NCBI GenBank assembly: GCA_018660265.1
Contig: JABJKS010000031.1
Span: 124,001-188,000 of the forward strand
Reading direction: 5' to 3'
Origin: Rhodospirillaceae bacterium
GTDB lineage: Bacteria > Pseudomonadota > Alphaproteobacteria > GCA-2731375
Length of the DNA: 64,000 bases
The first letter of the stretch is position 1. Each line of letters begins with the position of its first letter. Positions 60,080 to 63,063 of this stretch are shown here, piece after piece. Below the pieces are notes generated by a model. That model saw nothing but the letters and a program-made list of their open reading frames with translations, had not been told where the DNA came from and made no database searches. The position numbers and the translations under genes are program-made.

Positions 60080-60321
60080 CGGCCTCTCCATACGCGTAAC
60101 TGTTCGCATAATTGTAACGTCATATTAATCCTAACGGATTTTATCGGTAAGTAAAGAAAAAAACCTTTTTGGGCGTTGAAATTGAGCGATTTTTGGGAAC
60201 AAGATTGTTTTGTTGCCACCCGCTATTAATCCACCATTGAGCGGCGTCTCTGTTGGGGGTAGCCGCTGCGGGAATTACTGATACAATCAGCCTGAATAAC
60301 TATGACACGGGGAGAGGCACG

Positions 60322-61032
60322 ATGGCCGAATGGGAACGGGAAACGCGGGCGGATTACGAAAGCAAAGGCTTTGGCGTATCGTCGGGCTTCGGCACAAAAC
60401 CTGCCCTTTTGGTGGTCGACTTCATTGTTGGCTTTACCGACCCCACATCGCCCCTGGGGGGTGATTTTTCGGCTGAACTGGCCGTGACGGCGCAGTTGCA
60501 GACAGCGTTCCGAAAGTCCGGCCTGCCCATTGTTTATACCACGGTGGAATACAAGGAAGACCTGTCCGATGGCGGCGTTTTCGTGAAAAAGGTCCCTTCG
60601 TTGGGTATCCTGCGCAAAGGCTCCCCGAATTGTGTGGTTGATGCCACCATCAAGCCGTTGCCGGGGGAAAAGATCATTTCAAAGAATTATGCCTCTTCGT
60701 TCTTTGGCACGGACCTGGATAGCTATCTTCGTTCCCAAGGTGTGGATACCTTGGTCATTACGGGGGCGACCACATCGGGTTGTGTCCGTGCCTCCGCCGT
60801 GGACAGCCTGCAATATGCCTATCACACCATTGTTGTCAGTGACGCGGTCGGCGACCGGGCCCAGGGCCCGCACGAGGCCAACCTGTTTGATATCGATGCC
60901 AAATATGGCGATGTCATCAACGGCGCGGCGGTTCTGGATTATCTGCGCAGCCTCGCCAATTCCGGCTTTTCCGATGCCGCCCGCAATGACTTTGAAACCT
61001 GGTGGAACCAGGGCCGGAAAGCCCAAGGATAG
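60322..61032 (+). CDS. Isochorismatase-family amidohydrolase (N-carbamoylsarcosine amidase-like)
   Basis: A 236-residue cysteine hydrolase. The triad is Asp33 in VVDFIVGF, Lys121 in ISKNYASSFFGT and Cys154 in TTSGCVRASAVDS. The segment order matches N-carbamoylsarcosine amidase and related enzymes that split N-carbamoyl groups. The ATG at 60322 has GGGGAGAGG four bases ahead. N-carbamoyl compounds are the products of hydantoinases, so it could complete the pathway of the 6-21 kb locus. The small gene at 61055 follows after 22 bases. Confidence 0.9.
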   Translation: MAEWERETRADYESKGFGVSSGFGTKPALLVVDFIVGFTDPTSPLGGDFSAELAVTAQLQTAFRKSGLPIVYTTVEYKEDLSDGGVFVKKVPSLGILRKGSPNCVVDATIKPLPGEKIISKNYASSFFGTDLDSYLRSQGVDTLVITGATTSGCVRASAVDSLQYAYHTIVVSDAVGDRAQGPHEANLFDIDAKYGDVINGAAVLDYLRSLANSGFSDAARNDFETWWNQGRKAQG

Positions 61033-61054: not shown

Positions 61055-61285
61055 ATGGCAAACAATAAAGGCTCAGATCTATCCACGGCATTCGATGCGT
61101 TGTTGGATAAGAACTGGCGCAGCCTGGATGAATTGTCCGGGCGCGCGCCACAGCCCAGGGCGTCGACGCGGCCTGTCGCTCCCGCCCGAGCGGCCCCGGC
61201 CGCTGGCTCTGCCCGGACAGAGGGCGGCAAATCCGGTCGCAAATCTGGCCGCAGCAATGGCATCGATTTTACGTTCGACATCTAG
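61055..61285 (+). CDS. Small basic, low-complexity hypothetical protein
   Basis: A 76-residue protein: a short helical N-terminus (DLSTAFDALLDKNWRSLDEL), then a Pro/Ala/Arg linker (about 31-55) and a Gly/Ser/Lys-Arg tail ending in DFTFDI. A ribosome-binding-like AGGGG lies about nine bases before the ATG. It sits 22 bases after the amidase and 32 bases before the peroxiredoxin, so all three genes may form an operon. No function is recognised. Confidence 0.65.
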   Translation: MANNKGSDLSTAFDALLDKNWRSLDELSGRAPQPRASTRPVAPARAAPAAGSARTEGGKSGRKSGRSNGIDFTFDI

Positions 61286-61317
61286 AAACGCCAAAAACTG
61301 AAGAAGGAGAATACTTC

Positions 61318-61761
61318 ATGGCATTACCGAATGTGGGGGATTTGGCACCTGCCTTTTCCATGCGCAACCAACAAGGGGCTGCCACGACCCTGGAACAACA
61401 CAAGGGCCATTATGTGGTTCTGTGGTGGTATCCGAAAGCTGACACACCTGGCTGAACCATCGAAGGAAAAGGGTTCCGTGATAGAATCCAAGACTTTACA
61501 GCCAAGAATGCCGTTATCCTGGGTGCCTCTTTCGATACATCGGAAGAAAACCGCGCCTTTCAGGAGAAGTTCAACTTCCCCTATGATCTGCTATCTGATC
61601 CCGATCAGGTCGCCGGTGCCGCCTATGGCGTGATCCAGGAAGACAAACCGTATCCAGCCCGCTTTAGTTTTCTGATCGGCCCCGACGGCCACATTGTCAA
61701 AGTCTATGACAAAGTGGTCCCGGCAGATCATCCGGACGAAGTTCTGGCGGATCTGGGATAG
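61318..61761 (+). CDS. Selenocysteine-containing peroxiredoxin (BCP/PrxQ type), in-frame TGA at codon 46
   Basis: A 147-codon frame from ATG 61318, with AAGGAG eight bases upstream, to TAG 61761. It is interrupted only by TGA at 61453-61455. The translation matches BCP/PrxQ peroxiredoxins: VVLWWYPKADTPG-U-TIEGKGFRD, with P39-x-x-x-T43-x-x-U46 in place of the PxxxTxxC active site, and conserved Arg115 in YPARFSFLIGPDG. The TGA is exactly at the peroxidatic cysteine. The residue five positions later, Cys50 in E. coli Bcp, is Lys51, and no cysteine occurs in the whole protein. A hairpin at 61471-61489 fits a bacterial SECIS element. It should reduce hydroperoxides in the cytoplasm as a one-selenol enzyme. 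A nonsense mutation or sequencing error is the alternative, but position and context argue against it. Confidence 0.85.
61471..61489 (+). promoter_or_regulatory. Candidate bacterial SECIS hairpin for UGA decoding
   Basis: GGGTTC (61471-61476) pairs with GAATCC (61484-61489), including one G-U pair, around the 7-base loop CGTGATA. The loop has G within its first two bases and a GU, and begins about 21 bases after the UGA, within the range known for SelB-binding bacterial SECIS elements. It lies inside the coding region, as bacterial SECIS elements do. Confidence 0.6.
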
Positions 61762-62025: not shown

Positions 62026-63063
62026 ATGACGGCGGATATTGCAGAGAACAGAGCCGAAGTTCAGAGCCGGACCCTAACCGCCGTTCTGAACGCGCGCGTG
62101 GGGCAGGTTTATGGCCCCGGCACCGGGATTGATGGTCTGGTCCGCCTCTCAGGCGGGGCCAGTCGGGAAACCTGGTCCTTTGATGCCCTGTTGCCCGATG
62201 GTCGCCGGCTACCTCTGATCCTGAAACGTGATCCTCTCGACGAAATCGACCCAGGCGACGCCGACGTCAACCTGGGCATTGATCGATGGACCGAGGGACG
62301 CTTGATGCAATTGGCTCGTGAGGCGGGCGTGCCGGCACCTGAGGTGCCATTTTTTCTCGATGCCGATGATCGTACTTCCGCCGGCTTTGTTAGCCAGCGT
62401 CTGGAGGGTGAGGCCTTGGGTCGGCGGATCGTGCGCGAGGATGAATTTACCCAGGCCCGCGCTAAATTGGCCTTTCAATGTGGCGAGGCCGCAGCGCGCT
62501 TTCACGCCATTCCCCTGGACAAGCTGCCGCCCCTTCGAAATCTGCCCGTTGCAGCGGCCCTGGATTATAATCAGGGCGTCATTGATGCATTCGGGCAACC
62601 GCATGCCGGCTTTGAATACGCCTTCCGGTGGCTGCGGGAACGGTTGGAGCTGGCCGGGGACCGCCTGACCCTGTGTCATGGCGACTATCGCAACGGCAAC
62701 TTGTTGGTGGACCATGCGGGTCTGGCGGGCGTCCTGGATTGGGAATTGGGACATCTGGGCAACCCTATATCGGATTTGGGCTGGATCTGTATTCGCGCCT
62801 GGCGCTATGGCTATTACGACAACCCGGTGGGTGGCTTCGGTGCCGTGGAAGACCTTCTTGACGGCTATGAAGCGGGCGGCGGCGGTCGGGTCTCGTTGGA
62901 GACCTTGCGCTTTTGGGAAGTTTTTGGCTGCATGCGCTGGGGCGTTATCTGTATGACCTTGGCATTCGCCCATTTGGAAGGCCGGGAACGTTCGGTGGAA
63001 AAAGTCTCCATCGGGCGGCGTGCGGTGGAAGGCGAGTATGATTTGTTGCAGTTGGTGGATTGA
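62026..63063 (+). CDS. APH-family phosphotransferase (aminoglycoside phosphotransferase-like)
   Basis: A 345-residue protein kinase-like-fold phosphotransferase. The nucleotide loop GASRETWSFD, catalytic HGDYRNGN and metal-binding VLDWELGHLGNP with DLGW match the APH/choline kinase group. Many such genes in actinobacteria and proteobacteria lie beside acyl-CoA dehydrogenases and act on unknown hydroxylated substrates, so an antibiotic-resistance role is not implied. A tandem paralogue follows 3 bases after the stop. Confidence 0.9.
   Translation: MTADIAENRAEVQSRTLTAVLNARVGQVYGPGTGIDGLVRLSGGASRETWSFDALLPDGRRLPLILKRDPLDEIDPGDADVNLGIDRWTEGRLMQLAREAGVPAPEVPFFLDADDRTSAGFVSQRLEGEALGRRIVREDEFTQARAKLAFQCGEAAARFHAIPLDKLPPLRNLPVAAALDYNQGVIDAFGQPHAGFEYAFRWLRERLELAGDRLTLCHGDYRNGNLLVDHAGLAGVLDWELGHLGNPISDLGWICIRAWRYGYYDNPVGGFGAVEDLLDGYEAGGGGRVSLETLRFWEVFGCMRWGVICMTLAFAHLEGRERSVEKVSIGRRAVEGEYDLLQLVD

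Follow-up and report, generated by a model that had tools for sequence, protein, structure and literature searches.

An in-frame TGA almost certainly read as selenocysteine in a PrxQ/BCP-type peroxiredoxin gene of a Rhodospirillaceae bacterium

Within the 64,000-nucleotide stretch of Rhodospirillaceae DNA analysed here (the window), we find a peroxiredoxin gene that, judged from its sequence and that of its relatives, is almost certainly intact, with its internal TGA read as selenocysteine (Sec). We regard it as very highly probable that the product is a PrxQ/BCP-type peroxidase with Sec as the peroxidatic residue, decoded via an mRNA hairpin shortly downstream of the codon (Table 1). The gene is thus one under selection that standard annotation would cut in two or discard.

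Table 1 Features of the Sec-peroxiredoxin locus (positions in the window).
Feature	Position	Strand	Basis
Isochorismatase-like hydrolase, upstream	60253..61032	+	named from sequence; syntenic in close relatives
Small 76-aa ORF, just upstream of the Sec-peroxiredoxin gene	61055..61285	+	same place in near relatives
Ribosome-binding site AAGGAG	61304..61309	+	8 nt before ATG; read directly
Sec-containing PrxQ/BCP peroxiredoxin gene (probable)	61318..61761	+	147 codons + TAG; AhpC-TSA match, relatives' TGA
TGA read as selenocysteine (probable), peroxidatic residue 46	61453..61455	+	TGA in 79/80 relatives, TGC in one
SECIS hairpin GGGUUC-CGUGAUA-GAAUCC (probable); loop 61477-61483	61471..61489	+	synonymous freeze, pairing, covariance model

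The reading frame and its conservation among relatives

The frame starts with the ATG at 61318, is interrupted by a single in-frame TGA at codon 46 and ends with a TAG at 61759-61761. Translated with TGA as U, it matches AhpC-TSA (PF00578; 3.2e-31, residues 6-128) and carries the PxxxTxx(C/U) motif and the catalytic arginine of PrxQ/BCP (COG1225), with P39, T43, U46 and R115 all present. Codon 46 lies in the peroxidatic context PKADTPG-U-T and coincides with the peroxidatic cysteine of solved BCP/PrxQ enzymes. The position of the E. coli resolving cysteine (U+5) is occupied by lysine, the resolving cysteine of atypical 2-Cys PrxQ (helix 2 or helix 3) is absent, and the full frame contains no cysteine at all. 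The original prediction of a TGA at the catalytic position of an otherwise clean BCP/PrxQ frame, of a cysteine-free protein and of a lysine at the E. coli resolving position is borne out by the translation and by the codon shared among relatives. A mechanical scan of the 64-kb window for other TGA read-through frames returned 159 candidates and offered no discrimination.

TGA occupies codon 46 in 79 of 80 relatives from species-level genomes (54-97% protein identity), a set that was sought with peptide patterns of the window protein, favours near relatives and is no census of PrxQ. Most of the 79 come from alphaproteobacterial genomes, and the earlier expectation that Sec peroxiredoxins are uncommon in this group did not hold. 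The lone TGC form, L100 (3001-3438), belongs to a Caenispirillum genome, has a degraded hairpin and looks like a Sec-to-Cys conversion. A close TGA homologue is present in 13 of the 15 genomes of the organism's own family, the exceptions being G010 (84% complete) and G014; selB is found in all 15, so its co-occurrence with the TGA gene receives no independent test there.

A search of the relatives for frame disruptions, which would have spoken for decay, found none besides the TGA, and the nearest relative (97% identical) comes from another assembly. Differences between near relatives fall mostly at third codon positions on both sides of the TGA; the dominance of such changes downstream, a sign of purifying selection, means that the downstream part is translated. 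P39, T43, U46 and the catalytic Arg115 are invariant among the relatives aligned, no cysteine is conserved, and 41 relatives lack cysteine altogether. In one relative, L061 (3001-3435 and downstream), a second similar peroxiredoxin frame appears directly after the first as a tandem copy in the read-through translation.

A hairpin downstream of the UGA

The putative SECIS element starts about 15 nt after the UGA, covers nucleotides 16-34 beyond it and consists of a 6-bp stem and a 7-nt loop, with the consensus GG(G/A)UUC-CGUGAYM-GAAYCC across relatives. Its apical loop, CGUGAUM, has G as the second loop base and fits the bacterial SECIS criterion. Each of the six stem pairs is standard in 76-80 of 80 sequences (the window plus 79 relatives). 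Codons +6 to +11 are frozen at the nucleotide level (TTC 80/80, CGT 80/80, ATC 72/72, GGG/GGA 80/80), a constraint well in excess of protein requirements. Over these codons relative synonymous entropy falls to 0.19, compared with a mean of 0.83 elsewhere, and they form the lowest-entropy six-codon window between 44 codons before and 58 codons after the TGA. When the hairpin was slid along the alignment as a control, pairing reached at most 68.6%, compared with 97.4% at the hairpin itself.

By energy alone the window hairpin is weak (z -1.71), and 9 of 200 shuffled sequences fold equally well. Two-sided compensatory change was found in no stem pair and did not exceed the shuffle control (67/500). 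Since neither energy nor two-sided covariation proves the structure, the case for the RNA element rests on the synonymous constraint and the slid control. A covariance model of the hairpin, trained on 26 sequences, recovered each of the nine TGA homologues tested, at 48-80 bits. Two of them, L119 and L131, share about 40% identity with the window protein and lie outside the training set. For the Cys forms the model gives 16 bits with the apparently converted L100 and below 10 bits, near noise, with the remaining Cys paralogues. Searching the organism's own genome with the model gave no second convincing site, as expected because other SECIS elements sit in different coding sequences, and an Rfam scan of the peroxiredoxin gene gave no match.

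Selenocysteine decoding genes in the same genome

The same genome contains a tRNA-Sec with anticodon TCA (UCA), adjoining selA and selB genes (C1:238797-242126), both of which exceed curated cut-offs, and a selD gene (C31:57158) with its own in-frame TGA at GGGUGC. In a control search the selB and selD models also matched related proteins weakly in any genome; the scores of the own-genome genes far exceed the curated cut-offs. Two further tRNA-Sec-like matches (L002 and L003) were rejected as tRNA-Ser. A second selD gene (C97:58106) encodes an NDH-SelD-like fusion with Cys (RCGGCGAKVG). In addition, a SelW-like gene (C37:48175-48372) encodes CMMU, and its TGA is followed by the hairpin CCCUC-CGUGC-GAGGG. 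By sequence, selenocysteine would therefore be used in at least three genes of this genome. The proposal that the TGA specifies selenocysteine rather than marking a random nonsense mutation, for which selA, selB, selC (tRNA-Sec) and selD had been named as the genes to look for, is thus supported on three sides: all four genes are present, the TGA is conserved, and the hairpin has frozen synonymous sites.

Other readings of the codon fare poorly against these data. The frame stays open past the TGA, which would also be seen if the codon were read as another residue, such as Trp or Cys, through a genome-wide code change or unspecific read-through. We consider this highly improbable: the genome encodes a complete Sec machinery, the same gene is terminated by TGA in several relatives (e.g. 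L029 and L036), the alternative residue actually seen is Cys (in L100) while Trp is unfit for the chemistry, and a specific hairpin follows the codon in TGA homologues only. It is more improbable still that a nonsense mutation has left a decaying pseudogene cut off at codon 45. The Cys-type PrxQ paralogue elsewhere in the genome could make the TGA copy dispensable, but the sharing of the TGA by nearly all relatives across their whole identity range, purifying selection beyond it with no further disruption, and the frozen hairpin codons speak against decay, which is already refuted because the codon and the downstream protein are both conserved. A sequencing or assembly error replacing TGC or TGT, conceivable in a draft assembly of 121 contigs, is vanishingly improbable and already refuted by TGA at the same codon in independent assemblies of different species.

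The SelD element, UGC-CGUGCU-GCA, resembles those of the PrxQ and SelW-like genes. In all three, C|CGUG tops a stem at a near-equal distance from the UGA, identical for PrxQ and SelW-like and one base nearer for SelD. The SelD and SelW-like genes were located through their protein families and not through the hairpin covariance model; the CCGUG likeness was spotted after the fact in three genes of one genome, and is a lead rather than a result. Tentatively, and with slightly more doubt than confidence, we suggest that SelB of this alphaproteobacterial lineage may read a near-fixed C|CGUG atop a short stem, approximately 23-28 nt from the UGA, in these unrelated genes. If so, the SECIS code of the lineage would be tighter than the general bacterial rule of a G in the apical loop, and the GFRDRI peptide of the Sec peroxiredoxin would owe its fixation to the RNA and not to catalysis.

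Family, proposed mechanism and genomic neighbourhood

Set against PrxQ families, the TGA=U frame matches BCP/PrxQ models, and homologues have Cys at the Sec position. The closest solved structures by sequence are BCP/PrxQ enzymes, and the predicted fold (pLDDT 91.9) is most similar to those of BCP, Burkholderia 5enu, Sulfolobus Bcp1 and Xanthomonas PrxQ; model confidence is lowest around residues 41-50 (64) and says little about local geometry at U46. The window protein scores 104 bits against NF006960 (thioredoxin-dependent thiol peroxidase; cut-off 140) and 40.8 bits against NF040737 (PrxU; cut-off 270). It belongs to the wider PrxQ/BCP family, outside the NF006960 equivalog. Its score misses the cut-off of each NCBIfam equivalog that it matches, in keeping with the expectation that automated annotation would split or miss the gene. 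Matches in phage collections are ordinary distant peroxiredoxins, with at most about 39% identity among the matches listed.

The fold and the PxxxTPG[CU]T motif are common to Cys-type PrxQ/BCP enzymes (E. coli BCP, Xanthomonas campestris PrxQ 5iph/5ima, Burkholderia 5enu), from which the window protein differs in having Sec for Cys and no resolving cysteine. AhpE of Mycobacterium tuberculosis, a 1-Cys peroxiredoxin of similar fold, likewise has a single redox residue and no internal resolving Cys, but uses Cys instead of Sec and shows lower identity (27-29%). PrxU (NF040737), the Sec peroxiredoxin of Eubacterium acidaminophilum, shares Sec at the peroxidatic position, whereas the window protein is shorter, PrxQ-like and outside the PrxU family.

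Sec peroxiredoxin is a known and common marine selenoprotein family of ocean metagenomes (Sargasso Sea 2005, PMC1088965; GOS 2008, PMC2398784) and is listed as an established family in reviews (PMC9312934, PMC13188914). The metagenome proteins share the COG-level family (COG1225/Bcp), the TxxU motif and an origin in marine bacteria, and in them, too, a bacterial SECIS whose small apical loop contains G follows the UGA. Motif, COG and habitat suggest that the window protein belongs to their subfamily. The present gene shows no categorical difference and adds one member to this known family; it ties the family to one genome with full decoding machinery, defined neighbours and a cysteine paralogue. 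Our literature search found no report on the biochemistry of the exact Sec-PrxQ subfamily. The gene offers a compact test system, a PrxQ with one selenocysteine and zero cysteine, alongside a cysteine paralogue (L103, 39% identity, Cys at the peroxidatic position) retained in the same genome.

In the mechanism we propose, SelB carrying Sec-tRNA(Sec) would bind the mRNA hairpin at UGA-46 and Sec would be inserted, all components being present in the genome. The selenolate would then attack H2O2 or an organic peroxide, yielding a selenenic acid. Because there is no resolving cysteine, at the E. coli position or elsewhere, an outside thiol, e.g. thioredoxin, glutaredoxin or glutathione, would have to reduce the selenenic acid directly, so that the cycle would be the 1-Sec counterpart of the 1-Cys mechanism. 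The Cys-type paralogue may cover selenium-poor conditions.

The 76-aa ORF (MANNKGSDLSTAFDALLDKNWRSLDELSG...GIDFTFDI), conserved at both ends and variable in the middle, directly precedes the Sec-peroxiredoxin gene in nine near relatives and is possibly its operon partner. The isochorismatase-like hydrolase is a further upstream neighbour. On the other side, at 62026-63063 (+) and downstream, lie two genes named from sequence as phosphotransferase-like kinases, which are in tandem in relatives; in L022, for example, 90% and 62% matches to the pair stand side by side.
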